Source: Apostichopus japonicus
Taxonomy: Eukaryota; Echinodermata; Holothuroidea; Aspidochirotida; Stichopodidae
Direction: 5' to 3'
DNA: 64,000 nucleotides
Assembly (NCBI RefSeq): GCF_037975245.1
Contig: NC_092563.1
Coordinates: 234,001-298,000, forward strand
Position numbers and translations under genes: made by a program
Notes under the pieces: generated by a model
The model's database searches: none
What the model was told of the DNA's origin: nothing
What the model saw: the letters and a program-made list of their open reading frames with translations, nothing else
Shown: positions 172 to 63,635 of the stretch, in pieces
Layout: every line of letters starts with the position of its first letter
How positions within the stretch are numbered: the stretch's first letter is position 1

Positions 172-612
172 TCAATTGTAAAAGTACCTTTCTAGGAGAT
201 GCTGGTGTCCTTTATGAGCTGAAAGATAAAGTACCACTCCTTTTCTGAAGGTAATCTCTTCATCACCTTTGACCCGATGTATTTCATCCATTACATTGTC
301 GACGTGTCCTTTAACTGTTGAGTTTATGAGTCTCTCATACTCCGCTAACACCGAAACTCGAAATTGTGTCCCCTGGGTAACTTTAACTTCATGAAGGGTA
401 ACCTCACCGTCATCCAAGATGTGATTCGATTTATATGATAACTGGAAAAGTTGGGACGGTATACCAGATGAAAATTCCACAAGAGATTGTAATTCTTCCA
501 CGGTCATATTATGTTGCACTATCAAGGTAATAATGTTACCCCACGGGAGCTTGACAAGGACATCGAAAGAGCGCACAAATCGTCCACCGGCGTCCCTCAC
601 ACCAACCTTCAT
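172..612 (-). CDS. Ubiquitin-like domain protein, N-terminal part, ANKUB1-like (partial)
   Basis: The 146-codon reading frame starts at an ATG at 612. Residues ~13-95 read as a ubiquitin-like fold, with a TVEELQSLVEFSSGIP segment matching the helix and following turn, then an LDDGEVTL segment and a final strand. The part after it (ERLINSTVKGHVDNVM, then VVLYLSAHKGHQHLLER) resembles the stretch of ANKUB1 between its second ubiquitin-like domain and its first ankyrin repeat. The frame stops at 172, but a donor-like AAAG|GTACTT lies at about 188/187. The exon may therefore end there, with ankyrin repeats encoded beyond the window. ANKUB1 is a poorly studied ubiquitin-plus-ankyrin protein, so no function is claimed. 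A short single-exon ubiquitin-like gene is the alternative. Confidence 0.5.
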   Translation of the reverse strand: MKVGVRDAGGRFVRSFDVLVKLPWGNIITLIVQHNMTVEELQSLVEFSSGIPSQLFQLSYKSNHILDDGEVTLHEVKVTQGTQFRVSVLAEYERLINSTVKGHVDNVMDEIHRVKGDEEITFRKGVVLYLSAHKGHQHLLERYFYN

Positions 613-2469
613 GATTGTATAGGTTATTGAGATGAGCTTGAGATGAGATTAGATGATTTAGTATATTACAAAATCAATTCTTTTGATCACGTGCTGATAT
701 TCCAGGCACTGTCACTGATTCCGATCGTTCAAATTTTCTAGATTTATAATAACTCAGACAGATAATTTATTCAAGCTCGATGTAAAACTGAGAGGTTGTT
801 GAAGAGTCAGCATGAGCCGACGTTCAGCCCTTCCCCCACTGGCACCCTCTGCCATGGAGATACCGTTCCAACAGCTGGCTCTATGGCCCTACACAGTAAA
901 TCCGACTATAGGCCTACAAAGAACTATATAATAAATAAACAAGCAATAACTTGATATGGGCCTGTAAAACGATCCTAATTTCAGTATTTACAAGATATCA
1001 GCATTAAACCGAAATCCATTTAGTTTGTCTATTTACCTCACAATGAAGTGTTCCGATTCACTGTCATATTTTTCGTATGAGTGTTATGAAAGATTCAGAA
1101 CAGTTCTGTTTTCTTCAAGTATGAGAGATCCTACCTCCAATATGAGAAATACCGCACCACAAAAAAAGGTAATGGCAACGTTTAGCGTACTGTGGACAGA
1201 AGTTGGTAACTCGCAGTAATATACCTTATAGATAACGAAATGAGAGAGAGAGACACACAGCAATATTAAATCTTCACATCTCCTCTTTCATAGAACTAGC
1301 ACTCTGATGTCTGCGGAGAATTGACAGTTATGCACACACTCCTATGCACTCCGGAGGGTTAGTGTTTTCCGTTTAATCGCTATTATTCTGTGACTGTCTA
1401 CCGCTAAACACAAGACCATGACAAGCATTGATTGTACATAAACAATAGCATTGGCTATGGCCCTTGTCGCTAAGCAATCTGCCTGTAAGCCCTCGATCAA
1501 TATCATCTACAAGTGTCAGAAGGGCAAGTTGGGCAACTGCGAGCATCTGTAGGGGAGATTACCAGGGACGATGATGTTCTTTAACATCAACAATTTCTGC
1601 TTTGATTTATTGCATTATTGCGATATATATAGATATATCTATATATATCTAATATATCTATATATCTATATATATAGATATATATATACAGAGAACTGAT
1701 TCCGGGTCACTTGTATATCCGTATTATACAGTATTTATATCCTTTTAACAGACAATTCAGTAATACGATCCACAAGGAACCGTGAGGACAGACAATAGTT
1801 TGAGCTACCCGACACTACCAGCGTGAATTAAGGGTCAAGATCCATCAGGGCGGGGGAGGGGGGTCCCTTAAATTTCAATTCCCATTTTCTAAGGAACTTG
1901 ACTGTATCTTTTTTTCCTTTTTTCTCTCTTTTGTCAATTTCTATCACACGGCTTTTGACTAGATCATCATCACGATGTGACGTGTTATAGACACGTGTGG
2001 TGCAATTTGAAGCACGTAGTATACGGTAAGTTAGTTAAAGGTCTGCTTTATTGGCTCCAATTATAGCACGCTAGAGGAGAGTTTTGTGATAACGTAATCA
2101 ACCTGCCACGGTCGTAAATTGATCTCATGCTCTACAATTAGCCTGCATAGCCGATTACCACCAATAGGCTTGTGTAAACACTGTGTGGAAATATGTTCAT
2201 GTCTACAGTGTAGTTATATGACCCACATACATGCAAATATATGTGGCAGGCGTTGTAGATTAAGTAATAGGTCGATTACGTACTCTCAAGAAACTTTTCC
2301 ATGATATTGATAATGTACATTTATACCGCGCCCTTACGACACAAGTGTCGTCAGAAGCGCCTAACAAATCACAATATTACCCCGGTCAACGATAATCTGT
2401 CAAACATAGAGACAACCCCTCCACATGCAGCTAAACAGAGCCCAGCTGACAGTATTATCCGGTCTCCGG
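613..2469. other. Intergenic, no gene seen
   Basis: No convincing coding exon appears on either strand. The stretch contains an AT-rich palindromic tract (listed separately) and otherwise unique-looking sequence. The upstream region of the minus-strand ubiquitin-like gene would lie just above 612. Confidence 0.5.
1621..1690. repeat. AT-rich palindromic microsatellite (ATAGATATATCT type)
   Basis: About 70 bp of alternating TA broken by regularly spaced TAGATATATCTA blocks. The tract is nearly self-complementary and could extrude a hairpin. Confidence 0.8.
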
Positions 2470-14201: not shown

Positions 14202-15090
14202 TCAGTTGTGATCTATATATGATATACCATGTGTGTCCTGTTTGATTGAGAATACTATAAAGCTTGTTAAATTTGTATATGACATATAATCATTCCTATA
14301 ATCCTTGATTTCTTTCAATTTCTTAATACAAAAAATAATGGCTAAAACCTTCTTTTCGATTTGTGTAATGTTTCTCGGGTTGACTTTGGGTCCTAGAGGC
14401 ATATATATATATATGTTTTGGAGCAATCTGGGACATCTGGATATCGGTGACTCAAAACGACGCCAAGTCCCCAAGGACTCGCATCAACACTTAATAAAAA
14501 GGAGATTAATGACAAATTTGCCTTAGTAATTCACTATGGTTGGTCAAAGTGCATTTTGTATGACCTCAAATGTTTACAAAGGGTTCACATCTTCATTGAT
14601 GAGCTAATGGCCAAGATATGAGGACTCAATCTAACAAATGGTGTTTTTGTCTAAACTCGTAAATACTGCATCAAGGGCATTAAAGTGAGTATGTACATTT
14701 TCAGTTGAAATCAGGATATTGTCTATGTAACAAAATACCCTATCTAGAACAAATACTAGTTTAGCCATAGCTGCCTGAAATATTGCTGGAGCAGTTTCGA
14801 CACCATAACACCAGGAGCGTGTCGAGAAATATCTGATTGAAAGCACCAGATAAATCCCGCACTGAAAATGCCTTAGGGTGGGTATCCCCTTGTGCCAATT
14901 TAGCAAACAAACTATTATAGTGTTTGGTAGTTTATACCAATCATCTTCAACACAATCATACAATTCTTTGTAGTCTCCAAATACCCTTACTTCACCATTT
15001 CCCTTCTGTAAATGTACAACTGGTGAGGCCCATTCACCATAGCCCACTGGGGTAAAACACATCATTCTTGATTTAGTTTTTCATATTCAT
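14202..15090 (-). mobile_element. Gypsy-type LTR retrotransposon pol remnant
   Basis: On the minus strand, 15065-14631 translates to a reverse transcriptase core. It has a GYGEWASPVV entry, KGNGEVRVFGDYK, the FGVxSAPAIFQ block in the altered form GVETAPAIFQ, and a catalytic box read as YIDN where an active enzyme has YIDD. Further downstream, 14430-14330 gives QIEKKVLAIIFCIKKL, typical of the RNase H domain start. Palm before RNase H is the Gypsy/Ty3 order. The copy is broken by a frame change and missing sequence between the two parts, and no LTRs were found. It is a fossil. Confidence 0.85.
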
Positions 15091-19312: not shown

Positions 19313-22300
19313 TCAAGTTTCATTTTTTATGCTTGATAGGGCCTCTTCCTTTGTAACTAATTCCCATGGAATGGAGGCTCTCTTGCAATTGTAGTATCTT
19401 GCAAGGTCGTCGTTAAAACGCGAAAGCACCCACTTCCAGTAAAGGGTTGCTTCATAATTAGAGATTGGTTTGATATCCCACTCCGGAAAATCATTTCTGT
19501 ATTCCTTGTATGGTCTTGGGATGTGTTCACACGTTTTTCCGTGACAACCACATGTGTAATATCTTTTGCTTGACGCGACATTTGCAGTACAAGTATCACA
19601 CAGAAGCTTTCTACTAGAACGAACTCGGCGACCACTTACACCATTCGGGAAATGTAGATTAGAAAAATGCATTTTGTGTTCTTTGACAGTGTCGTCACAA
19701 AGGGTCCTGCAAAAGGGACACTGGATTCCACATCCCTCCATCGCGTGAGCTAGTACAATATGCAACTTTTTGGGAAGGCCGTTAAACCATTCCTTGATAT
19801 CCGAGATGCAGCTAGTATCTGGAAGTTCCGCATGTTGCAAAAGTTTCGGTTGCATAGTATTCTGAACTAGATTTTTACATTCTGCACCAAACACGTCATA
19901 ATCGGATATAACTGTGTACATTTTCTTATCAGATATAGCTTCTTCGTTCAAAGATGACTTTACTGACTTTTCAAAATACTCGGTAAAGGTTTCAACCCAC
20001 TTTTCGAATGAAACGTCGCTTTCACTTTCTGCTCGAAGGGAACGCAAAGTTGCATCCAGTGATACACCCGTCTCTCGCAGTATTTCACCAATTTCGTGCA
20101 TTGCAATATCTTTGATTCGAATACAATTCTCTGTTTCTTCACAGCATTCTTTGGCAATAAAGGATAATGTCCATGTTTGCAGAAATGTTGAGTGTCGCGT
20201 AAGAAAACCAATATAATTTTCAAAGTCTTCTTCTTGACAGAGGTTCTCTAAAACCGCTATTAAGAAACGAGGTCTGCTGCAGAACATTTCGTCGCCAGAT
20301 TTAATCAATCGCTCAAACATTGCTGAACAGATTCGATTCTGTAGACATTGCTTCAGAGATTCCTCGATAATAGAGCAAAATGATTTAGCTGCCAAATGAT
20401 CCGAGCATGTACCATCACATAAGGTCTTGAAGTCTTGATACAAAGCGTGTTTTTCCTTCTCCAGTAAGGTTGTTACACTGTTTTCCTGTTCAAATGTAGT
20501 TTGAACATCCACACATATAGGGAAGGCCCAGGAGCAGAGGTGTGCAATAGAAACGATATGTTCCCGCTGACCCAATTCTTTGCGTGCGCTCAACTCCTGG
20601 TTAGTGGAAGTAATCATATCCCTTATTATGGTGGAACTGTAGGACCCATTACTTTTGATCTGCGCAAGAAACGTCTGACGTGCTTCTGCCACAATAGAGA
20701 AAACAACATGGACGTTTTCCCTTTCTAGTATTGGTAGTTCCATCATGAAGCACTTATCAAGTGTGTGTCGTGTGTCCACCGTAGGTACCATTTTGGCAAA
20801 CTTCTGAATGTTCTCTTCTGATAGACCAGCTAACATCTCAAATACTTCAACAGGCACAAGTGCCTTGACAATTTCAATAAATTTTGTCATTTGATCGATG
20901 ATGTCTACAGAGAAGAGGTCCAAATGTGCTTGCACTTCAGACCAAGATACGCGATCAGCTAGAGCATCCATTTCAGAGCGAACGGCTTCTTGAATGTAAA
21001 ACCCACACGCTTCGCATTGGAGATGCTCGCGTTTCCTATTATCAGTCAAACGAAGTTTATTCAATAATTCACTAACCATTTTAACGAAATCCTTTGTTAC
21101 TTTTAGTGAATACCACTTTTTTCTGTCTACCCTTGACGTGATTTCATTAAGATTAACTCGAACTTTGTGCAAGAAATTTTCGTCACTGTAGTCTGATTCC
21201 CATCCAAGCATGTCCGTTATAACCCAATTAGTCAATTTCTTCAGCGTGCTTTTAGTAGCGCGGTTTAATGTTTCATTTTCGAGACACGCAGTAACATGGC
21301 GTTTAATTTTCCACTCCGTACATATATCAGGTTGTTTTAGTTTGACTAATAGTTCCTGATTCTGAATTATCTTCTTCAAAATGCTTTGCTTGTGTGCGAC
21401 ATTTGCGGATTGCACAATGTTACAAGACAGGATAACGATCAAAGCTGTTTTATTTCTACATCCTGGGCAAGACTTTGAAACGATGCTCGTCAGTGACCTT
21501 CTGACACTGTCCAAGAATTCTTCAGAAAATTTAAAATCCTCTTTGTCGCATGCCGTTCCAACAACATCAAGTAAGACGTTTACTAACCTCGTCATATCTT
21601 TATCGCATGGTCCTATTAGTCGAAATGCTTCATCTGCATCTCTTTCAGATTTCATAGGTGGGGTCATTTCACAAAGTCCTTGAAGTTTGTGTGTATTCAG
21701 TAAATCTCTCATTGCCATACTATGACTACTACGTTGCAGACACTCCTGGACACATCTATAAATTTCAGCTTCAATGTTCTGCCGAATTCGGTCTTCACTA
21801 TTTGTCGGATGGACAAGCTCGATATTCTTCATACATTTTGACCACTCTTCTTCAAATGTTGTCTTCACGAGCTCTTCAGTCTTCAGCTCAGATATTTGGT
21901 CCTTATCCTTACCACTGTAACTTTGGAGGAATTCGTTTTGCAGCTTTTCTGCAACTGGAAGAACTTGCCTCCGCAAATCCGCCTTAAGCTTCGGTAGAAT
22001 TTGGTTTTCTTTTGCTGTGGCATTGCTGATGATATCGGACTGAAAATGTATCATTTTCTTCACCGTGTCTAAAATGTTCTTTTCGAAAAGATCTAAATCA
22101 CGGTAAAAATAAGTGGAATGGTGTCGAACACTGTCAAATTCTCGGTTTTGCAATGTTTCACTAATGTTAGCTCGTATTTCACTCATTTCTTCAGTCATTT
22201 TGTGTTCAAGTTCTAATAGTAAAGTTTCTTTCCGTCCTTCAATATTCTCAACAGTTGAATTTCGAATTTGTTGCTTCGCTTCAAGTTCCCACTGCATCAT

Positions 22301-25224
22301 TTCTCGATTAAGACGTAACTGTTGTCTCTTAAACATTTGGGAAAATGTGTTGTATTGTGAAATTTCGGTCGTGTTCCGGAAGTTGAATACAAAATCTTCC
22401 TGTTTCACTGCATTCCAAACGCTACTTATTCTGTCCTCAAAGTCTGTGAGCTTTTGTAGTCTAGTGTTTTCCTTCACTTCTCTCAAAAGAGCAGACTTCA
22501 GTTTTAGCACCGTCTCGCTGTAGTCGTGATTGGGGGAGGACATGGACCCTCTCCAAAGGCTGGGAATGTACTGCACATTATCCTCTTTGTTGTCAATGTT
22601 GACAATGTTGAAACAGTCTGAGAACTGTCTGTATTGATCCTCTTTCCTTTCTTCTGTTGCGGCGGTGATAACAGCTTGATTAAGTTTCTGAAGTATGCTT
22701 TGGGTGCTGCTCTCATTTCGGTATTGGGCGGTTACATCAGCAACAAATTGCTGTATGAGGTAACAAGATGAGCTCAATTGAACCTCCTTCATCCTTATGA
22801 ATGCATGTGCAGAGATCTGAAGAATGTTTGACAGGTCTTCTCCAACAGTCTGCCCTCCAATGTTGATTAGAGTCATATCGGAGAGACATAAGGCAAAGGT
22901 CGCCAGCTCATTGTCTTCACTTTTTCGTTCCGTGACAGCTTTCTCAGGTGCTTTTAAACCCTCAGTATCTATAACAACAATAAAGTCTCTACCAATTTCT
23001 CCCTTTAGGGAATCAGCTACTGGTAACAACTGCATAAACACTCCCCGAGTGCATCTTCCAGCGCTTACAGCAAATCGAACGCCAAACATGCTATTGAGAA
23101 GGGTAGACTTACCACTGCTTTGAATGCCGATAACTGAAATTACATAAACAGACGCGTCACCAATGATTCCTCGAACCGCTGCCATGATTTCTTTTACCCA
23201 CTTGATGGGTACATGACACGCATCCCCATCAAAAATTTCTAATGGTTGGCCCTTGAGTAACATTTCAGCAACCATTTGCGGTAGTGACTTTACATCAAAT
23301 ATCTCTCTCATGTTTTGTTGATTGCTTTTTACAGTGTTATGGAAACACTCATATATTTGGCCGAATTCCCTCACGAAATGTTCGAAGCCTAGAGAGGATG
23401 CGTCAAATGTCTTATTCCTCTCTGTTAGATTTTGCTGCAACTCAGACTCTCTGGATTTCCATTTTCTAACATTATCTTCCATAGCTCTTTTCTCCTGCGC
23501 AGGAATAGAGGAAACACTTAGTCTTCTTTGAATATCTGTGACCTTTGCAGCTGTTTCTCGTAGTTCATCTCTAATGGCCTTCATCTCATCTAGAACGGGA
23601 CGCAAGTTTTCAATTGAAACCTCATTTAAAAAGTGTTGAAGCCAAAATACCAAAAACTCTTTGTAATCCGAAGATTTACTCAAAAGTTCTTCATACAGAA
23701 AAATCATCTCGTTAGACATACCAATGTCACGCTGTTGTTGTCTCACGGCATTCTTAGCTTTGTGCAACATAGCAAGCTCCTTTTCCAAATTACCTTGTGC
23801 ACCTTTCCAACTTCGGTCTTTGTCAAGTTGCGACCAGTTTTGCCATTTTACCTGCAAAGGGAGTGCCTTCAGTTTGTAATCTTTGGGGTTATCTTTGCAT
23901 GTTTGTAATATTTCTAGGGCGGCCTGCTTTGCCTTTGAACAATCTTGGAATAATATATCAACTACAATGCCGTTGTTTGCGCAATATGATGCTGTATTGT
24001 GAAGGTTCACTGAGGGTGCTTTTACCTCTCTGAGCAATCGCTTTATCTGACCGCAGATTTGTTCACAAACATCAATTTGTGAAAGCTCTGACGTGTCTAT
24101 GACACCTGCTCCTGTTTCTGTGATGGAATTTAACAAATACTCATCTTCTTTCCATCTTGGAACTAATTTCCCGTTGGAGGACAGCAGTACTAGGCTCTTC
24201 CGGGTAATGGCGTTAGGTTGGCCCAGCATCTTTTGTACATCTCTTCTGTTAACAAACACTAAAGTGATCGATGCAAAAGTACAAAGATAATCAAACTGGG
24301 ATGAGGACTCTAAAGCATCTCCGCGGAGGTTTAAAAAGCAAACTGCCTGCTCAATGGTATGTTTACGACCACTTGGAAGGTACCAAACCGCCTCCACTGT
24401 TCCTCCGGATAAAATGGAAGAAGCGATGTCCTGTTCTTGGCTGCAGAAAAACGGATGTTCGTCGTTACCTTGTACAGACCCTATTAGTTTGTTCAAAGTA
24501 TTCGACTTTGAGAAGTCTGGATTACCAAAACGCACTGCAGCTACTATTGGAAAGGGAAATTGTGTAACATTAACTTCATTCACAAGGGAAGTTGACGGGT
24601 CTTTCCATGCTTTCGATATTTTTTGAAGTCCCCATAAAAGAAACAAAGGGTCAGACGTAGTTGAGTGTGGCAGAATCACTGGAACAGCCAGATGGCATGC
24701 AGACATTTTTGACAAAACCTCTTGCCTAAGGAAAGGATCGCAATTCATTAGGATGGCATTTACAATATCTCTGCAACTCAGTCTAATTGTATTAATAGAA
24801 TCAGACGAATACAATTTATTATTTGGATATTGAGATGGGACCACTGAAAGATTCATGTTGAGCTCTTCAAGTTCCTTAAAGAGTCGCAATGAACGATAAT
24901 CGTATGACATCAAACGATTTAAAAAGGCTGTAACAACACATGCAGGAGATACAGTGTCTTCACAAAAATGAATGCTTTCAAGGGTCATGCTACTAAGAAC
25001 TGTTAACTGTTTACCACCATCTAGATCAATACCAAGCGATTGAAGAACGGATAACACCTGTTCTTTTGTGTGAGTTGGTTTCTTGCTTCGATGGTTGTTC
25101 CTTGTAGGATTCTGAAATGTCTCCCGTGGTCTTGCGGATGATGTCCTTAGTAGTTCCTGGTCTTGTGATGGGATGTTAGTGGCAGTTTCTCTTGGACTAA
25201 AACACTTAACAGAAGGTATGATAT
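19313..25224 (-). CDS. GVIN1-like: Interferon-induced very large GTPase (VLIG/GVIN)-like protein, giant coding exon
   Basis: One uninterrupted frame of about 1970 codons ends at the TGA at 19313-19315. Residue numbers below count from an in-frame ATG at 25354, which I think is intronic. A pyrimidine-rich acceptor CTTTATAACAG at 25225-25226 gives a better 5' border. The N-terminal third contains a degenerate G-like domain (GNPDFSKS, 277-284) and a coiled-coil region at ~520-700. The main G-VLIG domain has a P-loop GIQSSGKS (743-750) and switch DTEG (796-799); no clear NKxD is visible. A long helical middle leads to a C-terminal Cys/His cluster (CPFC at 1879-1882, then CDTC and CGC further on) and the family's terminal YWKW motif. 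VLIGs are large cytosolic/nuclear GTPases, interferon-inducible in mammals and little understood. Human GVIN is ~2400 residues. The single giant exon matches vertebrate VLIG genes. Confidence 0.93.
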
Positions 25225-28200
25225 CTGTTATAAAGAAAAGCAAATACAATACATCATCAAACACATAGACCATGACAAAATCCATGTCATCAATATTTAC
25301 ACTCATGTCTCGAAGCAAACATAGTAGGCTGTACCATTGATAGGAACATTTCATTGTTGCGGTACTACACGGTTATCAGTATAAGATATATCCATCTGGT
25401 TTGTCTCGTAAACCATGGCGCTACAAATAGTTATGCAATATCAGGTGCATAAAACCTTCATATGCACAGTATTTTAAGTACTTTTAATAGCATGAAGGCT
25501 ACAGATTTGATTTACACTGCTTTCTTGCTACTAACAGTTGTGGGATGAATCCTATTAAATTAAAAATCAACAACAAATACAAACGACTCGGAGGTTGCAA
25601 AACTATTCTGCATGAGTAGGGTATAGCCTCTATCAGCTGAATAGCTGAACAGCTGTTACTGAGACTTCAACTTGGGTTTTAATTACAGTATGTATCTCCG
25701 GGTCCTCATTTGGTAAACTTCTTTTTTCATTTAATTTTAATTGAAAGTGACCTTTCGTTATCAAAAAAATTCCTTTATATTAAAAGTTAATGAAATTGTA
25801 ATTAATAAGTGCCCTGTTTATTAACAAATGAAGAATATGATGTACTTAATGGAATAAAACACCGTACAAATACTGGAATTTATGATACCATCGGAATTCA
25901 CACGCGATCCACATATCCGGAAATATTTCAGGTAACTTTGTGGTTTCCACCTAAAAGTCACATGTTCCAAATCTGTACTCACAATGGATTTTAACTAACA
26001 GTGTACAACTTACCAAAATTACATTTTTGCCTACAGTCATCGTTCAAGTATGTCATGTAATGTATGTATATTAAGTTAATGTCATACAGTGTATGGACAT
26101 AAGCATATGATGTGCTTTGGATCTCTTGACCTGAAATGACTCAAAACATTGACCTCCACAAAAACAATTTCTGCTTTCACCCATTGTATTTTTGCACCTG
26201 TATATTCTGCCTTCAGGTGATAATTGTCAGTTCGAGAGGCACCAACAACTTTTAGGAGGGTCACAATATTAGGTCCTGAAACTTGTGAAGCCATATCAAA
26301 CGTTTGATATTTGTCAAAAGGGTGTATTTTAATATTTATAGGGACATGCCCACTCCTTGTTTGTACCCGGCCTGCCAAAGATCTGGCTGCCATATATCAG
26401 ATATCGAATTGATAATCGTCATGACATCGAGTTATGCAAATTCAGGCTTCCATACTGACATACCCTGACACACCTACTTGAAAAGCACGTTCGTCCTTAT
26501 TAACACATATAGTATCGCATTCTAATTTTCATGACCATTATTAAAGTCAATTGCATAAATACATGACCAGCCAGTCCTGCTCAATTAAATGGGATGCAGA
26601 TACAATCGTAAGCTCTATCTTATATGCAGCGATCTTTGTGATGAACTCTCCAAACTCCCTTAAACAGCTAAGAACAATCTTGCTCAAATTGAGAGATATC
26701 CCAGTTGAAAAGTCGCGTCTGAGAGACGGCACTTTGTAAACCTGTGATGTGATAGTGCCACTAGGATCTGAAACTTTATACTTTCCTTCTACTTTTGTTT
26801 TCACTTTCATATTTTCAAGGTAAAAGGTTAACAGTATCGACACTGAAACCAATGTCATCATTAAAGAGCATCAATATTTTAAAAAAATCCTTCCCCATTA
26901 CAGGAAATAAACATTGTAATAAATAAAATAGAACATAACAGAATTAAGCACGTGTGGGTCATATTTCTCTTTCTCTATTTTGCAGCTTACCTAATGAAAG
27001 AGGATTAATCCTGTAATATCTCCTACATGGAATGAAATTTACCTTATATATTTGGGAAATTGTTCATTACTGTTATCTCTTTTGTGATAAACGATTCTCG
27101 GGTCTGTGTTTTTTAATGTTTACCTTACCATAGGCATAGGAGCCCAATTTGATTGGGGGGGGGGGGGCTGGAACGACTTGCCGGAAAACATAACCAAAAT
27201 TTTTCGCGCCATCCGCGCGCGTTCAACATCTTAATGTACATATCATATAGGCATTCATCAGTTATTACATCGCATGCCAATTACGTACAATCATTTGCCG
27301 TGCTTTTACCCTTCCATATTGGCTATTATTTTCGGGGAGGTCGTTTTACATTTAGTGATGGCATTAGTAATGGCGAATTAGTCGGGCAAGCTTAGAACTA
27401 TATTTTAATTACCAAGGAGATTTTTTTATAAACTATTGATTTCCTTTAACTACATCATTGCAATTTATTTTTCTTTCAATAAGTGCCCGAAAAATTCTCA
27501 GCATATTGCTCGAATTTACACAAAAATATTTGTACGCCATTAAATGTTTTTCTTCAGATCAGATCATTTTGAACTCATGCGATTTATTCACTTATAGTGT
27601 CCACTATATTGTAGTGCGAAGCGCGCTACAATATTGGGATTACTAGCATACTCCATCATATACATGGCTGGCTGGTGAAATGGTGAATGCCAGCTGAACA
27701 CACTCTTCATAGCAAACTCAAATTCACAGGTTGGTTACGCAAGAAAAAAACCGACCCAGATTTACAAAGAATTGTGGCGGTGAACAGTTAATTCTGCACA
27801 TACGCGAAAAGAAAATAGGTCTTCTTGGGTAGCATACTTCCTCAAAACAATGCGTAAAATTCTCTACTTTGGTTGTTATTCTCGAATTGAAAAATACATG
27901 TAACATTTGAACGCATTTGAATTAAAACATACTGCAAAAAAAGGTACAAGCAACACATGTTCATCGTATTTATCCGCAACGACTCGGCGTTATCTGTTCT
28001 AATTCAGCTCATATGCACTTGGTACGTTGTGATTGTTATCGCCATCTAGCAACGAGGATATATAGTAAAGTTAACATGTTGTTCCAATTGACCAATCAGT
28101 GTGCAGGACTCTGTGTATTCTCTGTCACGTCCGAAACAGGTGTGATTTGTGAATTACAGCTTGGTTGTCTGGTTAGTCTGTGATGGTTTTAGTCATCATT

Positions 28201-28691
28201 TCTAGCCATCATATAGCCTAGGTTTGGTATACGCTAAGGGACCAAACGCCGAACTAGCTTCTTGGTCACCGAAATAACTTCAAAAGGGTTGCAGTAACAA
28301 TTAAAGAACCCTCCAATGAATACCAACAACTGACTAACTTTCGCCTTCACCGCGCACATCAATGACATGTATTTGTATACAAATACAGTTGTTCTAGTTC
28401 TATATTGCTCTCGGTTGCATAAAATCATCTTTAGAGCAGTTAATTTGTAAACTGTAAAATTGCCTATTAAATATCATGATTGTGGAAAAGTCCATATTTG
28501 TTACTTCCTACTAAGATTGGACTTAAATTTTATCGATCTTAGAACTCATCATCATTTCCAGCATGTTCACTTGACGTACAGCACGCAACCACTATTGGGT
28601 ACAGGGCTAAACGGGTAGACTCGATCAAGTATCACTATCCTGCAAAACTGACCTTTTGGGTTAGAAGAAAATCTGTTTTCAGTTAAATCAC
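25225..28691 (-). other. Probable intron between DED-like and VLIG exons, with two unassigned open frames
   Basis: Two minus-strand frames look less random than the rest. The first is 26842-26547, preceded by acceptor ATTGGTTTCAG, encoding an amphipathic stretch with SLNLSKIVLSCLREFGEF. The second is 26393-26082, with NIKIHPFDKYQTFDMASQ. I recognise neither, and no donor with matching phase is visible. They could be extra exons of the DED/VLIG gene, an unrelated gene relic or chance. The rest of the stretch holds a transposon relic (27129-27395) and unremarkable AT-rich sequence. Confidence 0.25.
27129..27395 (+). mobile_element. TIR-element relic, family shared with 45119-45415
   Basis: Starts with cataggcataggag, a G run, then gacttgccggaaaa, then aaaatttttcgcgcc.tccgcgcgcgttcaacat, and ends near ttagtaatggcgaatta. 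The reverse complement of 45119-45415 carries the same blocks in the same order, including ttattacatcgcatgcca. These are therefore two copies of one non-coding repeat family with a CATAGGCGTAGGAG-type terminus. Confidence 0.75.
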
Positions 28692-29000
28692 CGAGGAACG
28701 ATGTCTTGTAGTCCATAACTAGATCCAATGCTTCATTCGCCTCCAGTACGCCCAGTAGTTCCACCAGTGCATCTACATCATCCTCTTTGACAATACCTTC
28801 CTTCTCCCAGTTGGCCATAAGACAGTGGAATGGCTTTTGTAATTCATCCACCTTCAGCACAAAGTCATGATCTTGATCTGTCAGTTGAGCAAGTTCCGTG
28901 ACGGCACCATGATCTAGGCACTTCTCTAATCCATGTACCATCAAACTAAACGGTTTGATCTTGAATTTCCTACATTTACGACCGTCCTTCCTTTCGAATC
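28692..29000 (-). CDS. Exon encoding a death-effector-like (DED) domain, proposed part of the VLIG gene
   Basis: A 309-bp open segment is bounded by acceptor TTTTCCCCTCAAG at 29001 and donor TCG|GTGATT at 28691, phase 1 at both ends (2 nt + 102 codons + 1 nt). From the PFSLMVHGLEKCL helix, the translation aligns with the FADD death-effector domain with few gaps. H1 'PF..L.H....CL' and H2 'TEL..L' are in register; then come a variable middle, 'F..LM.NWEKEGI', and a DALVELLGVLEANEALDLVMDY ending of the helix-5/6 type. The helix-6 RxDL motif of classical DEDs is read as ALDL, without the Arg. DEDs are homotypic adaptors in caspase-8/FADD signalling. Membership in the VLIG transcript is inferred from strand, order and matching phase. 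It could instead be a separate small gene, or another death-fold class. Confidence 0.55.
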
Positions 29001-29244
29001 CTTGAGGGGAAAACAGAAAGTCAATACTTTCAGTGATTTTGTCCTTACATTATTGCCTAGTGTTTACCAGCACGAAACGTGCAATCATTAGGAAATACAC
29101 GGGGATCTTGTGCATAGACAGATAGATAGATAGATATATATGTATATTTATGATATTGCATTTTTCAACTCAATACGATTTCAAATATGTGTGGGGGTGT
29201 GTGTTTGTGTATTATGTGAGATTGGAAGGGTGCAGGGTTAGTAC

Positions 29245-29334
29245 CATTGTCAAACGGCGGCATGGTCGCCAAAGACTGGAGATCACTGTGAATGCTTTCT
29301 CGATTAGTCGACGTTAATTCTGGCGTTGTTCTTT
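29245..29334 (-). CDS. 90-bp linker exon, copy 3 of 3
   Basis: Exactly 90 bp between an AG (acceptor ATGTAG) and GTACTA donor, phase 1 at both ends. With the G of the preceding exon it encodes a 30-residue unit, E-R-T-T-P-E-L-TST-N-R-ES, then LQSL. It shares the TST..ES and LQSL landmarks with 29793-29882 and 32564-32653. It lies 244 bp upstream of the DED-like exon on the transcript. Low-complexity Ser/Thr/Pro composition suggests a flexible spacer. Confidence 0.6.
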
Positions 29335-29792
29335 CTACATGAAGTGAAATTTAGGGAAATAACACATCCTTAGTATGAAGTAATGTTCATAATTAAATAT
29401 TTTAACGCTGAAATGTGTGAACACAGTTATTCATGAACATGCATATATCTTCAAAACATCATATAGCCCCATTTATGTTCATGACAGTAGTCATTATCTA
29501 TTAACATAAAACATAAATACAACATACAAAAATGTCTGACATAAATCGTACGAAGTACTCAACGAGAGTGACGCTATACTGCCGATGAAGTGGCTTTTTA
29601 TAAGAGTTTGAACTCCGATTATATGTATGATTTATAACATACATCCAGAACCACCTGATAGAATTAACTTTTCAAACTATGTTCAGACAAGCCTGTCATG
29701 AATGTGTCTACTATATATAAGAGTGGGATAGACAGAGAATCGTAATTTTTAGGCAGCATTGTTTTCATTTGGTTGATATAATCGTTTAATAC

Positions 29793-29882
29793 CGTTGGCA
29801 GACAGCGGCTTGGCAGGTAAGGATTGAAGATGGGCAGAGCTGCTTTCTTCATTGGTCGACGTCAGTCCTGGCGATGCATTTT
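29793..29882 (-). CDS. 90-bp linker exon, copy 2 of 3
   Basis: Same size, border phases and landmarks as the other two copies: acceptor CATTTAG, donor AACG|GTATTA. The 30-residue unit runs E-N-A-S-P-G-L-TST-N-E-ES and ends HLQSLPAKPLSAN. The high similarity of exon and splice borders indicates exon duplication. Confidence 0.65.
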
Positions 29883-30059
29883 CTAAATGAAAGGACGTGT
29901 ACAGAGAGGAAAGAATGAATCGTTAATGTTAAGTTATGCGCATGCTTATGATAAGTTTACATAAATAAATAATTAGTAATGATTACTTACATTGGAACGA
30001 ATTATTTGCACATATTACGTTTGAAAGTTTTCCGATCGGGATATCACACATTGCTTTCA

Positions 30060-31680
30060 TAACATGTAGTGTACTTCGGTCATGTTTCCAGGGTAGAAGG
30101 GATTTGTTTACCAGGGATGGGTTGCACTTCGCTAATACTGGGGCGTTGTTGTTTGGTAGGATGGTGAATTACTCTGTTGAACAGCTATGTTTAAACTAAA
30201 TTGGGGTGCGAATGAAGTGGGGGGGGGGCAGGCATATATTTTGATAAGGATTATGTTTATTGTGAAGGTGCTTATAGGCATTTTGAAAGCATGGAAAGTG
30301 ATTGCTATAGTTCTATCATTATCAGGAGGCATGCTAAGGTACAGAGTTGTTCAGGGATAAGCTGAAGATTTCTTTACCAATGCTAAAAGTATTTGTAAAA
30401 ATTGTAAGTGTTGAGAAATCTCAGTTGCAAGGTTCTTTTGTAAATTCTGTCTAGTGCGAGTTGTCCACAGACAACTCCAATAGTAATCTAAGCCCTGTTA
30501 TTACAGGCCCGTTAGTCTCTCTATAGTTGTTTATAAGGTCATGGAGTCTATTGTTAAAAAGTCTAAGGTCAGTAGTCAGTCTTTGACCAGAGTGGCTCAA
30601 CATGGCTTTTGTCCATAAAAGGTCTTGTCTCACTAATATTCTTGAGTTTATGGAAGATGTATCAAGCTCACTAAATAGGCAGAAGTCTGTATATTTTGTG
30701 TTCCTGGATTTCTAGAAGGCATTGGAAGATTCCTCACCAGCGTATTTCACTTAGAGGCTGAAGAGTATGGGTGTCAATGGGAATTTACTGTCTTGGATCG
30801 AGAATTGGCTTGATAATATAAAACAGAGGGTTAAAATTGAAGGCTGTGCTTCTTCTTGACGTTACTAGTAGGGTTCCACAAGGGTCTGTTTTGGGTCCCT
30901 TGTTGTTTGTAGCCTATATAGATGCCATTGACGGAGATATTTTGTGTACTGCTAAGAAGTTCGCTGATGACACCAAACTGTATTCTGAGATCTCTTCCAA
31001 AAGCGGTTCTGAGAAATTTCAAATGGATTTGGATAAGGTTTTTTTCCTGGTCTCAGGGATGTCAAATGCTTTATAATATTGATAAATGCAAGGTGATGCA
31101 TAATGTTAGGAGTAACCAAAAGTATACCAACAATCTTAATGGTGAGGAGTTACAGGAAGTCTTTGTTGAAAGAGACCTAGGTTTCTACATTGACTCATTT
31201 CTGCAACCTTAGCTCGAACCTGCCTACTAAAAGAGGTAATAGCTTTTTAGGTATGATCAAGAGGAACTTCAGTTTTCTGAAAGTGGACATATATAGTTGT
31301 TAGGCTTTATAAGCCGTTGGTTAGGCCTCATATGGAGTATGCTGTGCAGGCTTGGAACCCATATTTTGATAAGGATAAGGAAGTACTCGAGAAGGTCCAG
31401 AGGGTTCCTTAAAGAGTGTTCCTTATTATAATCGGTTACAGCTGTTGAATCTCACCACATTGGAGCTTAGGAGATTACTTGGTGACTTGATTCATGTTTA
31501 CAAGATTGTGCATGGTTTTGACTATTATCCTTCACTGGCTTTTTGATGTTTGCTAATAGTAGTTGTACCAGAGGTCATTGTATTAAACTCCAAAAGTCAC
31601 AAAGTAGGATTAATGTTCGGCATAACTTTTTTCTAATAGGGTTGTGAATGAGTGGAACGGTTTGCCTATGACCTCCACCA
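30060..31680 (+). mobile_element. CR1-like non-LTR retrotransposon remnant
   Basis: Plus-strand debris with many stops and frameshifts lies within the intron between linker copies 1 and 2. Near 30080-30190, TRDGLHFANTGALLFGRM resembles the end of the esterase-like ORF1 domain of CR1-type elements. From about 30500 the reverse transcriptase follows: a Q-HGF-type block, then SRVPQGSVLGPLLFVAYI and KFADDTKLY near 30860-30990. The RT thumb and tail follow (KCKVMH, then ERDLGFYID, then RPHMEYAVQAWNP) up to a terminal VVNEWNGLP near 31640-31670. It lies antisense to the host gene and is not functional. Confidence 0.85.
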
Positions 31681-32100
31681 AAAACCAAAGGGATCTTAAA
31701 CTCAACGTGTCACAGCTAAATACTTGGTACGTGATTGGTCCAAGCGTGATACGTGATTGGTCCAAGCGTCCCTTCTTGAGATATCGTGTTAACAAGGTTT
31801 TAACAATTTGACCCCTGGTGACCCCAAATGACCGTTGACCTCCATCAAAAACCAAAGGGATCTTGAACTCAACGTGTCACAAATTCATACTAATATGAGA
31901 TTGTTCCAAGCACCTCTTTATGAGCTATCGTGTTTACAAGGTTATCATAATTTGACGCTTTTGTGACCCCAAATAACCTTGAACTCCCCTAAAACAATAT
32001 GCTTCTTCTACTCGATGTGGTACTTCTACACACCAATTATGACATTTGTCCAAGTTCCATTCTTGAGATATCGTGTTGACAAGCAAGGCATCACCATAGA
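31660..32100. repeat. Three diverged ~150-bp tandem units
   Basis: Units begin near 31670, 31829 and 31968. They share tgacctccaccaaaaacc, a caaagggatctt(a/g)aactc block, then gagatatcgtgtt.acaagg and tttgac.c...tgaccccaaat. Identity falls from the first to the third unit. No coding potential is apparent. Confidence 0.7.
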
Positions 32101-32261
32101 AATTTATTAGGATGGGCATCACACACACACTCACAAACACCCACCCATACTCACCCGCCTGCACACATACAAAGGTTACGATTATCATCAAAACCGAATT
32201 CATGGCAACTCCAATACAGCTATTTAGCTTACACTACACTTTGCATTATACACACGAAATT

Positions 32262-32366
<105 letters not shown>

Positions 32367-32563
32367 CATTATTTCTTAAATGGTTTGAATTCCAAACCTT
32401 TGAGTGTGTAAAAATGAAAAAGGGAGCAAATATAACTTCAAAACTTGGATCCTTTTTTTGTGTTTGCTGGACTTAAGAGGTAAACGAAGAATATGAAACA
32501 GAGATATAACCTTTCTCCATGCAAAGTAAAAGTTGAAGAGTGAAAATTTTTAACAATCAATAC

Positions 32564-32653
32564 CATTATCAGGCAGCGGCAAGGCAGGCAATGATTGAAG
32601 ATGACTGTGATTGCTTTCTCCATGGGTCGACGTAAACCCTGACGATGCACTTT
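32564..32653 (-). CDS. 90-bp linker exon, copy 1 of 3
   Basis: Bounded by acceptor TTTTGTTTTAG (at 32654) and donor AATG|GTATTG, 90 bp, phase 1-1. It encodes a 30-residue unit with GFTSTHGES, then HLQSLPALPLPDN, homologous to copies 2 and 3. About 2.7 kb of intron, including the CR1 remnant, separates it from copy 2. Confidence 0.65.
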
Positions 32654-33770
32654 CTAAAACAAAAGATATACAGACAAGTTACTTACATACTGAATTATTT
32701 GAATATTACCTATAGCTGCAAAACACTGTTGTTCACTTTCATTACATGCAAAACTTGCTTTCGACTAAGCTATCCAACCGGTGGAGACGGCCAGACGGGG
32801 CCTTGATATAAACGGCCCATTTTTGAAAAAGACGATAACGTTATCAAATGTATGGCACCACGGTCTGATCCAGCGGTGCACCGGTTTTGAGCCAGTAAGC
32901 CGGTAGCCCAATTCGCCTTTATTAAACACATAGGCCTACCTTTACCGACACACAAAAACCTTACCTACCTTTAGAAAATATGGACCCTATTGGTCTCGAG
33001 CTGAAGGGTGTGTCCCTTTACAACTGATAACGGAGCTTCATGTAACATTGGTTACCGGACTGAATAGTTTCATAAAGTTCTTTGATTTTGAATTCGCATG
33101 AAAGAAGGGTCTCCAGGGCAGCTCCATGTTCACACCACCGACAAAAAGCGAGCACTGAGTGTAGACAGCTTCTAACACTGCGTGTCGCGAAATCCGTCGG
33201 ATGAATTTTTTTAAAATACGAAATAACAATACTTCGCTACATACGCCATATATTAGGTCCATAAAGCCTGGACCTTCGCCGACGAAGCTATAGACTTAAT
33301 TATCTTTCAAGGATTGTGTGATACTTACACGTGTCATTCAAGGATGAGTTAAGGAGGCAGAAATATTATATTTGATATTTTATAATCCAAGGAAATGGAA
33401 ACTTGGGTGATCGTAACATTTGTCTCTATAACGTTTTCGATTTTCATGATATTTACTTTGAAAAACATGCTTAATATCCGGAACGCTGCTTTAAAGCTAA
33501 ATTAGATAACGACGACGTCGACTCCTCTCAGTACAGGCCCGAATTTGAATATTAACCCATTGTTTCATCAATTCTAATGACTTAACCAGAGCGTACTCTT
33601 TTAAATTAATATAAACAACAACAAGGGGCAAAACCACGTATACTTCTGGTGGGGTGGCGGAGTAACCTGGTGGTGTGTGATTATGTGTATTAAACTGCAT
33701 AGTGTATATAATGCTCAATTTAACATTACTCTTTGAAGACTTAACGCAAAGATGAAGCAAATAAACAGAC

Positions 33771-33900
33771 CTTTCAGTAGATTTGGCGGTGGCAAGGAAC
33801 TAGGGTTTCTTTCATTCTCATTCGCAGGAACAGAAGGCGGTTTCGACGGTGCTGCTGCTTTGGGGGCCGTAAAATTTCGAGATTTTGGCTTATTTTTTTT
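33771..33900 (-). CDS. Lys/Pro-rich exon, proposed upstream exon of the DED/VLIG gene
   Basis: An open segment between acceptor ATTTCAG (33901-33902) and donor GAAAG|GTCTGT (33769-33770). It reads KKNKPKSRNF, an Ala/Lys/Pro stretch, then SVPANENERN and SSLPPPNLLK. It ends in phase 1, as the 90-bp exons require upstream, and begins in phase 0 after eight A. Composition suggests a basic, disordered segment. Further 5' exons and the start codon were not found in the window. The call rests on splice borders, phase and position only. Confidence 0.42.
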
Positions 33901-34396
33901 CTGAAATATAAAGAATTAAGAATACAATAACGAATGATGAAATTTCCACTTCCAGATCGATGAGCAACAATAATGCCAATTCTGTTCTTATCACACAATT
34001 CGTACTGTACCATAGAGTAAACAAAATCAACAATATTAACAACCATTAAGCCTCATGATGTATTCTATCTTGGCGGTCGAAAGAACCTCTTTTAGTACTA
34101 TTCTGTAGTAAATAATCCCACAATTCATTTTCAGGTGGATGCATCAACAAACAACAGATACGTTACGAAAAGCTTATATAATCTGGACTCACGTCCCCTG
34201 ACTTGTTTTATTATTCTAGTTGATGTAATTAGTTTATCCAAATTATAGTTCTTCCAAGATTGAGAAATAATTTGTTCTGTACGATATCGTCATCAAAAAT
34301 TACATTATTGTGTACAAAGAAAACCTAAATCTCGTCCCGGAAACATAATAGCTACGGGGAGGATGGGGTGAGATAGAAGAGGAGGTACACTGGTTA

Positions 34397-52600: not shown

Positions 52601-55600
52601 CTCTGCAGAGGCTGTTAGTAGAATTAAAGCAGGACTGGGAGTTGTTATTAACTGTTGAACTGTAAGCATGAGAGCCCTATAGCCAATCAGCACTTGCCGA
52701 TTCTTAGAAGTCTTTGAGCCTGAGGTATGTAGGCAGCCAGCCAAAATTTTGGCAAGGAGTGCTTCAGGTCTGCTCTGGTAGAGGGGAGAAAGTTTAATAG
52801 GGTAGGTCTGTGGTATTGTTTGAGAGAGTGGGTAAAATAGGATTTAAAGGGGGAAAATAGGAATTATAGCCAGTGGTGTGGCCAGGGTTCTGCTAACGGA
52901 GGGGGGGGGGATGGGGTTATCCCTCATGGGCCCAAAATTGGTGGAATCTGAAAAATGGCCTGAAATTTGGTGGGCCATAAAGTTTTGTGGGCCCTACATT
53001 TTTAAGCCCGAAAAGGTATGAGCTTCTGCACCATTGGTGCTCTAGTATATTAATCGCATACAGTTCCCCCAACCCACTAGTTTGAACTCAACCAATCAGA
53101 GATGCAGGTTTAGTTTTGAGCTGTCGCTAAATATAGATTCAAAAACGTTGAGTTGGTAAATTGGTACAACCAGCGAGCTGGTACTCTAACAACTCCCTGG
53201 TTCAACTGCCATAGACAATCTACACAAATCATGCATGGTGTTGTATACTTGTATTACATAACGATCAATGACGTTCGTCGCTTTTAAATATTCATATTAT
53301 GGGTGAGGTTTATTGGGATCCCAACGGAAAATATCTTCGAGAAATACAAAGTTAAAAGTTGTAAATTTTTCGACTTTTATGCCACCATATGAAGTAAGAT
53401 TTGAATAGATGAGCTAGTTATGTATGTCGTTATGTCATCGAGGAATCAGTGAGGTTGAGAAAAACCATAGAAAAGGACACAAAATGCTGCTTTAACCTAA
53501 CCCAGTCCCCTTTCATGTTTTCCTCATGCTATACAAACACTGGTAACTCATTTGTATAAACCTTTTGAACAATATCACCTGTGTGTCACATGTAGACACT
53601 ACATTCTAGAACAATACTACCAGTGTGTCACGTGCAGACACCATCATAAACTATAGCAGGAATACGATCTCATCACATTATTATACCCATTGATGTTGGA
53701 AAGATTGAGAAGCGGCGACTCTCCAATGACCAACCACTGCAAAATTGTGCCCATTAGAGACCATGCAGAGGAGAGAGAATCCATTTCTGCTAATATTCTA
53801 CCTCAGGCTGACACGAAAGAGTACTAACCAGGCGTTACATCGCTGGAATGTACGGCAATGAGTGGTACATTGGTATAATTTCAGAGGAAGAAAATGATGT
53901 CTTTGTGAAGTTAAATGAAACGAAACAAGAACTCCAATGCACTTCCTTGGCCACAAAACACCCACAATATTTGTTGGATACCATTCTGAGCTGTTATTTG
54001 TGTCATCAGTGCTCCAGAGTTACAGGGACATGGAGGCAGCCAGTACACTCTCCCTCATGAAGACTTCAAAGACCATTCCAGCCAAACTGCAAGCATTCAT
54101 CAAGTAAACAAATTAAAGTGTGCTAACTTGTATATCAAGCCACACTGCAAGCATTCATCAAGTAAAAGAAATTAAAGTGTGCTAAACTTGTTTTACTTGT
54201 ATATGAACATCCATGTGTGGTAAGAAAACTGTAAGGACATTGAAGCATTGAGAGTTGTGACAGAACCAGTATATAATTTAAATGTGCGTGAATCGTTAAT
54301 GATGTGATTAAATGTCATTAATTTGACCTAAAACAATTTGTTATGTTACATTTTGATTCAGCTGACTGAAACAAGGATACAATGATCATATCACTCATTA
54401 TTATACTATGATTACATGACAAATATATAAGCTTGAGATTAAAAAATATGCGAAAAACGTCTAATATTCAAATTGCCACCATACCATGAAGAAGTTGAGT
54501 GCCAAAGCTGAAATTTGATGTACAAGTAGATATAATATATATATTTAACTGGTGTAAATTTCAATAAATGTTTCAATTGATCGCGGGGTCAAGAAGGGCG
54601 GGGTCTTTTTGACCTTTTTCTGGCTGGAGCCAACTTTGGGCCCATGCCATTTCTTAATTAATGCATTGGTGGGCTTATAATTGCTTATGAGTAAAGACAT
54701 GCAACCATAGATAATTCCCAAGGAATATACTGTAAGATTCATGTGACCTCTCATGTGGGCACAGGGTGACCTTAAAAATCACAAAAATCATTTTTGACAG
54801 AATAAAGTGCCTACTTTTGGTGATCATAACCAGAAAAATATAGGAGATACAGTTAAATTGAGTGCAGATTCATAAATTTTGGCAAGAAGTAAGATAGAAT
54901 ACCAAATTTGAGCTCTATACCTGACCAGACAAAGACTGAATCATGAGCTTTCAAAGTCGGAAAATATCACAAAAGTCACTTTTTGCGAAACGCAAACGAG
55001 CAAAATGGCCACAACGACCAAATTTCAACGGGCCATATCTCGAAAACGACATGGAGTATAATTTTGATTTTTTGTGTGTGTTCATTTGGGACATACTCAA
55101 TCATTCTGATGAAATTTCATCTAATTCTGAGAGGGTCACCTGGGGACCACTGGTTGATTTGACATGGAATGACCCAGAAGGAATTATTTCTACCTCAAGT
55201 TTTGTATAGTTTCTTAACATACAAATGCTTAACATGTGATCAGTCTATCTCAGTTTTTATTTTTTTGGATAATAATTCTGGAACAATTGAGGAATCATCT
55301 TGGAGTTGGGACTAAGAAAGTTGGGAAACTGAGCCATTTACACCAGTCGAGGGAATTCTCACTTATTTACTGACTGTATATTTGCAGTTAAAATTCTTAA
55401 CCTGTGTTCTATCTTTTTACATCTAGATGATGTGAGTGGAAGAGCTCTCTACCTTGATGGTCTGGCCACCACACCATTGGTATGAACTAGATGAATAAAA
55501 CACACTTCATCTATACAAGGCTCATTGTCTTTCACTTATTAACCTGCAGTAAATGTGAGGAAAAACACACTGCATCTATGACTAGGCTCATTATCTTTCA

Positions 55601-61600: not shown

Positions 61601-63635
61601 GGCTAAATTAATCGGAGCAGATGCAAGGGAAATCGTCTTTACAAGTGGTGCTACTGAGAGCAACAATATCTCCATCAAGGTGAGTAGTGCTTGCAAAGGA
61701 GAAAATATACATGTACAACATGTTTGAGCACTAAACCTCTCTTTCCTATTTTAGTATCACAATTACTCTTATTTGTGTCTCTGATATACCGTGTACCGTT
61801 TGTCTGGTGGTCTATAAATAGAATCGAAGTTTGTTGGAAATGATAGGACTCCACATTTACTTATTATTAATTATCTTGACCATAAAGTAATCAGCAAGCA
61901 TAGTCACATAACATGTCAAGCAATCCAGAAAATTAAAGCAGATTTCAGTGTCATTCAAATTAAAGAATGCTATTATGGTTTGAGTTGTTGCAATAGTAAA
62001 CAGGAACATTATTGCAATATATCAATCAAACTTTCTGAATAATTGAAGCAAATACAACCATCATGTAACAGTACTTTACAACATTGTGAATTCTTGCAAC
62101 AACTAGCAAATGTAAACCTTTGTTATATATGTGTAAACTGACAGGAGGATTGATTATAACAAGTTTCTAAGGGCCTAAACTTGTGGAACTTCTATGTCTG
62201 GAGAACCAAATGGGTTATTAAATGCATTTAGAAATCACAGATCTGTTTGATAACTCTGTGTGCTGAAACTTCTGATGACATGACTCATTTTAAACTTAAC
62301 TATTTGTTTATATGTATATATATATATTTATATAAGTTTTAAGTTTGGTTGGTTGGCATCTATCTTGGTACAGAGTGCACTATGGCTACTCAGAGTTTCA
62401 CGCATTGACCAATCATCAGACAACTGGTCTGACGATCGCTCAATGCGTGAAACTCTGAGTAACGATTATGATCAGAAATGAGTGGAGACAATCTATGAAT
62501 TTGTGGGAAGCTAACATCTCTGATCCTGAAAAGGATATCAAATCTCCCAGTATGTTCCTTTCTGCATTGATAGTTGCTGATGTAAAATGTGCATTCATAC
62601 CACAGTAGTTTCTGTTGCAAATTTTTTCGTGGTCCAATTGATAACGTGCTTCAGTAATTTATTTTTGGTGCAACATTCGTGTGTAAACTACTGTGAATCG
62701 TCGAAAGTACACATTGAAGTTTTTTTTTTAATCGACATTGCATAAAAAGCTATTCACATAGGCCTACTGTCATTTTCATAGGGATGATTGTTTGCAAAGA
62801 GCCTAGCCCAGGATAAATGTTGGATCAGGTTTTGAGGATTTGCGCATGTGAAGTTGAAAATGAAGTTTGAATAGGCGCCTATGTACATGCAGTAGTACAA
62901 TGAACTGTGTGGAAGTTAGTGAGAGATATGCACACTGTAGGTACTGCGATTTTTGAAGAGTTGGTTGTTGGAATCGCTGCAACGTCAAAGCATAGAGCTT
63001 CTACGGAGTTGGCGAGTAGGGAAGTACAGTACAAGGGCGGATGAATGAGGGGGGGGGGGGGGATGGGGGTTAAAATTGGTTGAACAGCAGGGTGGGCAAA
63101 AGAAGGGGTGGGCCGGGCCTCCCCAGCCAAACATATATATTGTGTATTACATTCTCTAAGTACAGGCAGTGATACGATCACATCTTTACAACTACACTAG
63201 TAAAAGTAGGTCATACAATAAACGCAATTGGTGTTCGATCAGGATGCAAGCTTTTTTTACGGGACGCAAACTTTTTGGAGGGCTTGCTTCTATTTTTCTC
63301 TAGTAACATTACTATATATATATATAAAATAGTAATGTTACAAGATTCTATATATAACTATACATTACTATATATATATATAGAATCTTGTTTGATCCCT
63401 AGAGTAAGGCAAATATGTCACCAAAACAGAACTAGTATTGTTCAATACAGGTGACAAATGCCTACAGTGGAATTACGACCTTCCTTACCGGTTTCGAACC
63501 TCTGGACATACAATCAGTGTCCATAGCCTAGTGGTTAGGGTGTCCGCATATAAAGCGGGAGGCCCGGGTTCGAATCCCGGTGGAGGCTGGAAGTTTTAGT
63601 TCTTGATTTTCCAACTCATTATGATTTCAATGATC

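Follow-up and report, generated by a model that had tools for sequence, protein, structure and literature searches.

Organization of the locus

The window, that is, the whole 64,000-nucleotide stretch of Apostichopus japonicus DNA that was analysed (contig NC_092563.1, positions 234,001 to 298,000), contains on its minus strand, in this order, a Lys/Pro-rich (K/P) exon, three 90-bp exons, an exon resembling a death effector domain (DED) and an exon for a VLIG giant GTPase:

33771..33900, minus strand: Lys/Pro-rich linker exon with AG..GT borders, entered in phase 0 and left in phase 1
32564..32653, minus strand: 90-bp linker exon e1, phase 1-1
29793..29882, minus strand: 90-bp linker exon e2, phase 1-1; amino acid identity of 83% and 72% to the 9.15-Mb and 9.18-Mb copies, respectively
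29245..29334, minus strand: 90-bp linker exon e3, phase 1-1; amino acid identity of 81% over 27 residues to the 9.15-Mb copy
28653..29000, minus strand: putative DED exon of 348 bp, phase 1-1; seven genomic copies, domain compared with hhalign
19313..25224, minus strand: VLIG giant-GTPase exon of 5,912 nt through the stop codon, with 1,969 whole codons open and domains PF25683 and PF25496

Spliced on their AG..GT borders, these six pieces give a chain of 2,219 amino acids, with the sole stop at its end. When the start of the VLIG exon is moved by one base, 123 or 162 stops appear in the spliced frame. Random 348-nt frames drawn from the window were open in 75 of 18,000 draws. The initial annotation had proposed such a same-strand series, with phase-1 borders between consecutive pieces; all pieces are present on the minus strand where they had been placed and splice to one open frame, and every join is in phase 1. 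The exon chain is confirmed. In the paralogue at 9.15 Mb, its own seven corresponding pieces can be spliced to 2,250 amino acids, again with the sole stop at the end. At the level of the DNA, the analysis established the chain of exons with its frame and phases, together with its conservation and linkage.

The DED exon ends at the donor CCAAAAG/GTCAGT at 28653. Its length had been given as 309 bp, with the end at 28692, and had to be corrected to 348 bp. Judged with splice matrices, the donor at 28653 is in the top 1.6% of GT sites, versus the top 8% for 28692. A donor aligned with 28653 is kept in six of six paralogues, always in phase 1 and with GTCAGT or GTGAGC as its sequence, while the L003 paralogue has no GT at the position of the shorter site. 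With the weaker donor, the paralogous donors at the long site and the absence of GT in L003, the 309-bp exon was rejected in favour of the longer one.

The VLIG exon

The VLIG exon begins after the acceptor ACAG/AT at 25224 and is open to the stop at 19313. It contains the following domains and motif:

23909..24772, minus strand: URGCP-like domain PF25496, 196.3 bits with a cut-off of 27
22517..23479, minus strand: VLIG/URGCP GTPase domain PF25683 (URGCP_GTPase), best stretch of a 344.7-bit match with a cut-off of 55
23102..23128, minus strand: P-loop of the GTPase, a glycine-rich GKST motif

A giant single coding exon marks the VLIG family, the coding region of mammalian VLIGs being confined to one exon. 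The P-loop, which we take to be the G1 motif, is present in all 23 VLIG frames compared (that of the window and 22 others). The first methionine after the acceptor is located 74–79 residues into the exon in six of seven copies and 51 residues in the other. The frame preceding the acceptor is not conserved; it contains ATGs in some copies and lacks methionine in one. The late first methionine and the methionine-less frame thus indicate that a conserved internal start is lacking in the VLIG exon. A VLIG starting inside the gap that separates it from the DED exon had been named beforehand as an argument against a fusion, and as far as the DNA shows, no such conserved start was found.

Genomic copies and their divergence

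The genome searched consists of 671.6 Mb in 35 contigs. The protein encoded by the DED exon was found in seven places and that encoded by the VLIG exon in at least 26, with 24 of 174 candidates scored. The seven best among these 26 or more VLIG matches each follow one of the seven DED exons directly on its 3' side, share its strand in 7/7 cases and are all located on contig C3, an arrangement exceeding chance for a genome of this size and the strongest argument for the fusion. The two exons are 3.4 kb apart in the window, and the matches in the six paralogues are separated by about 1.0–2.4 kb. All seven copies have a phase-1 acceptor for the VLIG exon, and its frame is open in six, the other containing an in-frame TAG.

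DED exon and VLIG exon have equal dS values, 0.222 each, in the comparison of the window with the 9.16-Mb copy, which argues that both travelled together. Between clades, dN/dS is 0.16–0.23 for the DED exon (three versus four copies) and 0.18–0.22 for the VLIG exon (three versus three, the copy with the TAG being left out), at a dS of 1.2–1.9, which is near saturation. Within the clade of the window, the ratios are 0.29–0.47 and 0.30–0.33, respectively. In the four youngest copies they are 0.62–1.72 for the DED exon, based on few changes, and 0.40–0.54 for the VLIG exon; the former range fits relaxed or diversifying selection. The DED exons of young copies are 88.8% and 88.2% identical in DNA, versus 84–91% for introns, the exon not exceeding the intron.

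Linker exons and the 5' end of the gene

The K/P exon is intact in two of the four copies searched upstream (9.15 Mb and 5.20 Mb), with length differences of 3 nt. It shares 80% of its amino acids with the 9.15-Mb copy, with one 3-nt indel, and 63% with the 5.20-Mb copy, with identical phases. It was not found in the 14 kb searched upstream of the 9.18-Mb copy or the 6 kb searched upstream of the 5.32-Mb copy. The window has three 90-bp exons and the 9.15-Mb copy four. A single one was seen in the 9.18-Mb copy, and the 14 and 6 kb searched upstream of the 5.20-Mb and 5.32-Mb copies, respectively, contained none. Exon e1, which has 93% amino acid identity to the 9.15-Mb copy, is doubled there, and the second unit has a 6-nt in-frame deletion. 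Donors of the 90-bp exons are weak by consensus (top 24–27% of GT sites), and the three paralogous units compared retain this type of site. When the window is aligned with the 9.15-Mb copy, two gaps fall in coding exons, one of 3 and one of 6 nt; the 43 gaps counted in introns include seven whose length is a multiple of three. Reverse-transcriptase fragments are located in the intron between e1 and e2 (30822–31073, plus strand) and at 14634–15080 (minus strand), with Pfam RVT_1 E-values of 3e-6 and 8e-6, below the cut-off.

The K/P exon contains no methionine and, by eye, an in-frame stop is found just upstream; given also its entry in phase 0, another exon must precede it. An ATG exon was not found by homology with the paralogous upstream regions or by an ATG-to-phase-0-donor scan over 26 kb. 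A G-rich start-exon candidate at about 39.6 kb is present in the 9.15-Mb copy only, is absent from the 5.20-Mb copy and was not accepted. Just 5' of the K/P exon, 172 nucleotides (33950–34121) are 90% identical to the 9.15-Mb copy, with three single-base gaps; neighbouring non-coding stretches are roughly 78–86% identical. This segment looks non-coding and is perhaps regulatory or 5' untranslated.

Identity of the predicted death-fold domain

With the Pfam DED model, the exon of the window scores 16.0 bits (E 0.014), below the cut-off of 35.9, and the Pfam Death model is about level (E 0.006, also below cut-off). Each of the seven copies is matched by the two models at E<=0.1, the best values being 9e-5 for DED and 1.4e-4 for Death. 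A search of the whole genome with Pfam DED at E<=0.1 lists 60 places, among them one of the seven C3 copies (E 0.04) and one exon just 5' of the VLIG on contig C21 (E 0.003). Profile–profile comparison distinguishes the two domain types. In hhalign, the profile of the seven copies gives 85–90% with nine Pfam-level DEDs of the same genome, versus 0.1% with eight Death domains. With five domains found upstream of other VLIGs it gives 93–94%, while 32 control windows from the VLIG exon reach at most 1.2% and an unrelated alignment 0.1%.

This comparison upholds the DED-like label of the initial annotation and supplies, at profile level, the death-fold match whose absence would have spoken against it; it settles the subtype of the predicted death fold in favour of DED. 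The last DED helix is expected to contain an RxDL motif, and by eye the exon of the window has ALDL at this place. Searches for a solved relative by sequence, with the single exon and with the profile, returned only single chance-level matches to unrelated enzymes (E 0.9 and 0.39).

A probable single DED–VLIG protein and its alternatives

The proposed fusion of a DED to a VLIG is supported by the linkage in seven copies, by phases and splice sites that are conserved, by indels that keep the frame and by the matching divergence of both exons. We consider it probable that the locus encodes one protein, consisting of an N-terminal part, a linker rich in Lys/Pro and Ser/Pro and composed of duplicated 90-bp exons, a DED and a full-length VLIG with URGCP domain, G domain and a long C-terminal region, and that it belongs to a small family of seven genes on one chromosome duplicated as whole units; its DED would signal when clustered by a GTPase coat.

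The same exons could be divided over two adjacent genes, a small DED-only protein (K/P exon, 90-bp exons and DED) lying 5' of a separate VLIG and co-duplicated with it. The 3.4-kb gap in the window would agree with this division, as would the ATGs that some copies have in frame before the VLIG acceptor, but that frame is not conserved and in one copy lacks methionine, the gap is shorter in the six paralogues, and the phase-1 DED donor and phase-1 VLIG acceptor are conserved in 7/7 copies. At five more distant VLIGs outside C3, the best donor of the last death-fold exon is in phase 1 as well (5/5), and so is the best VLIG acceptor in three of them (3/5). Overall, two separate genes appear very improbable.

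It is also unlikely that the exon encodes a Death-type death fold, or a helical domain so diverged that it has lost binding to DEDs: the Pfam scores for Death and DED are alike and both below cut-off, but the profile comparison separates them, and Death-domain identity was rejected on this basis. The function of a genuine DED may be read in another way. DED-only proteins can be inhibitors in other systems, and a search of the gene for a catalytic death domain gave none; the DED might be a regulatory or inhibitory (FLIP-like) module, or restrain the GTPase in cis, instead of activating death. We regard such a role as a lesser, though not negligible, prospect beside a death-activating DED.

Other VLIGs of the same genome

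For a tree, 23 VLIG frames were taken from 26 matches; the three left out were a broken copy and two fragments belonging to genes that the tree already included. A death-fold exon is located just upstream in 12 of these 23 frames, seven on C3 and five elsewhere. Among the latter five it is DED-like in four, with CARD and other domains in one:

C21 VLIG: upstream exon with Pfam DED 2.3e-6, below cut-off
C1:14.8 Mb VLIG: upstream exon with Pfam DED 0.0036, below cut-off; ATG at start (by eye)
Two C7 VLIGs, 20.3 Mb: upstream exons with no Pfam hit, matched by profile only; ATG at start (by eye)
C1:3.34 Mb (L042 296-3783, L031), (-): CARD, TRADD-like N, second TRADD-N-like and DED-like exons 5' of the VLIG, on the same strand

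At C1:3.34 Mb, Pfam gives 3.3e-7 for the CARD, over the cut-off, and 0.0025 for the TRADD-like N, below it; the second TRADD-N-like exon, recognised by eye, and the DED-like exon have no Pfam hit. The last death-fold exon has a phase-1 best donor in all five genes outside C3, and the best-scoring VLIG acceptor is in phase 1 in three of them. For the C7 VLIGs at 20.3 Mb, the best acceptors of one copy are in other phases, and none passed in the other copy.

As a profile, the five domains outside C3 (A5) give 93–96% with DEDs versus 2.6–18% with Death domains; a profile built with three new domains scores those three by construction, its independent matches being L042 and L039, the latter nearly identical to one of the three. 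Compared singly with DEDs, L024 gives 67%, L026 52%, L030 33%, L042 13% and L039 13%, two of the five being weak.

No death-fold exon was found within about 5 kb of the C4 VLIG and two C17 VLIGs, and the upstream state of the VLIG at C7:1.47 Mb is ambiguous. Seven single-exon VLIGs in a C17 cluster (L015, L017-L020, L022 and L023; C17:5.24-5.55 Mb) have an extra N-terminal region within the VLIG exon itself, with a conserved FGSHV..GPF..GGR stretch. This region matches MACPF/perforin at E<=0.1 in three of the seven (best 0.0017, below cut-off); from its sequence, it is a possible MACPF-VLIG and a lead. In three of these seven genes checked, no death fold was present in the 4 kb upstream.

Grouping the death-fold VLIGs into one clade (12 versus 11 rows) was rejected with a p-AU of 4.9e-6, in a tree made uncertain by long branches. 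If they do not form one clade, the death-fold state either dates far back and was later lost or replaced in some genes, or was gained more than once. We tentatively suggest that the VLIG family of this animal may be a set of giant GTPases whose N-terminal killing modules can be exchanged: a DED (C3, C21, C1 and C7), CARD plus TRADD-like plus DED-like domains (C1:3.34 Mb) or a MACPF-like region in the same exon (C17). One coat-forming chassis might in this way be wired to caspase-8-type signalling, to caspase-1/9-type signalling or to direct membrane damage, and be diversified by phase 1-1 exon shuffling. The hint of a VLIG chassis with several interchangeable death-type modules adds to the interest of the family.

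Proposed mechanism and comparison with known systems

Vertebrate DED filaments recruit FADD/caspase-8-type proteins. By analogy with the coats that human GVIN1 and GBP1 are reported to form on bacteria, the DED-VLIG GTPase would oligomerise, driven by GTP, when an intracellular microbe is sensed. The clustered DEDs would nucleate a DED filament and recruit FADD/caspase-8-like proteins, so that the coat would be converted to a signal for cell death or inflammation, and the long flexible linker, with its repeated Ser/Pro exons as a tether, would keep the DED at a distance from the GTPases. DED-VLIG GTPases may thereby trigger cell death directly. The modules were probably added 5' of a single-exon VLIG by symmetric phase 1-1 exon shuffling.

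The predicted product of the window gene resembles the vertebrate VLIG/GVIN/URGCP proteins, for instance human GVIN1, in its URGCP and VLIG-type G domains over Pfam cut-offs, its intact P-loop and its one giant coding exon; unlike them, it has an N-terminal DED and repeated linker exons. We know of no death fold in vertebrate VLIGs, whose signalling targets are, to our knowledge, poorly understood. A natural join of DED and VLIG would provide a testable prediction for the downstream pathway, activation of a caspase-8-like protein by a GTPase coat.

Human GVIN1 is described as forming a coat on intracellular bacteria in a 2025 preprint (PMC11974893), in the text of which the word "CARD" is absent and the places shown with the word "death" concern cell death. 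Zebrafish Gbp4, a GTPase with a CARD, is reported to act through an inflammasome (PMC9005921). In it, a large immune GTPase of the dynamin superfamily carries a death-fold domain, as is predicted for the window gene from one open spliced frame and seven linked copies, but Gbp4 is a GBP with a C-terminal CARD, where the window gene would have a VLIG with an N-terminal DED. The two cases suggest that coat-forming GTPases and death-fold platforms have been joined more than once.

In marine invertebrates, TRADD-N/DED families fused to AIG and GBP GTPases have been described (Kaur et al. 2021, PMC8195603). There too, death-fold adaptor families are joined to immune GTPases, expanded and shuffled, and C1:3.34 Mb, with TRADD-like and CARD exons before a VLIG, offers a parallel; VLIG is not named in the main text of that article, and the window gene yielded no TRADD-N. 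In amphioxus, sea urchin and Nematostella, DED-NACHT and DD-NACHT receptors (PMC2575513) likewise have the DED attached to an NTPase switch with no adaptor hub in between; the switch is a NACHT ATPase there and a VLIG GTPase here. No DED-VLIG was found among the matches listed in the PMC open-access literature. The join is less isolated than had been thought, given the similar modules before other VLIGs of the same genome and the fusions to AIG and GBP GTPases. For a sea cucumber challenged with Vibrio, the published list gives a Gvin1-like transcript as lower (-2.67; PMC4519954).

Other features of the window

At the left edge of the window, downstream of the VLIG exon and on the same strand, an open frame (172–648, minus strand) encodes a ubiquitin-like domain (Pfam E 4e-4, below cut-off); we presume that it could be an ANKUB1-type first exon. 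Upstream of the gene, a 65-bp satellite array with about 71 copies and 95% matches occupies 55497–60135. A tRNA-Tyr with anticodon ATA was located by ARAGORN at 63516–63589 (plus strand), and Rfam supports it as a tRNA.
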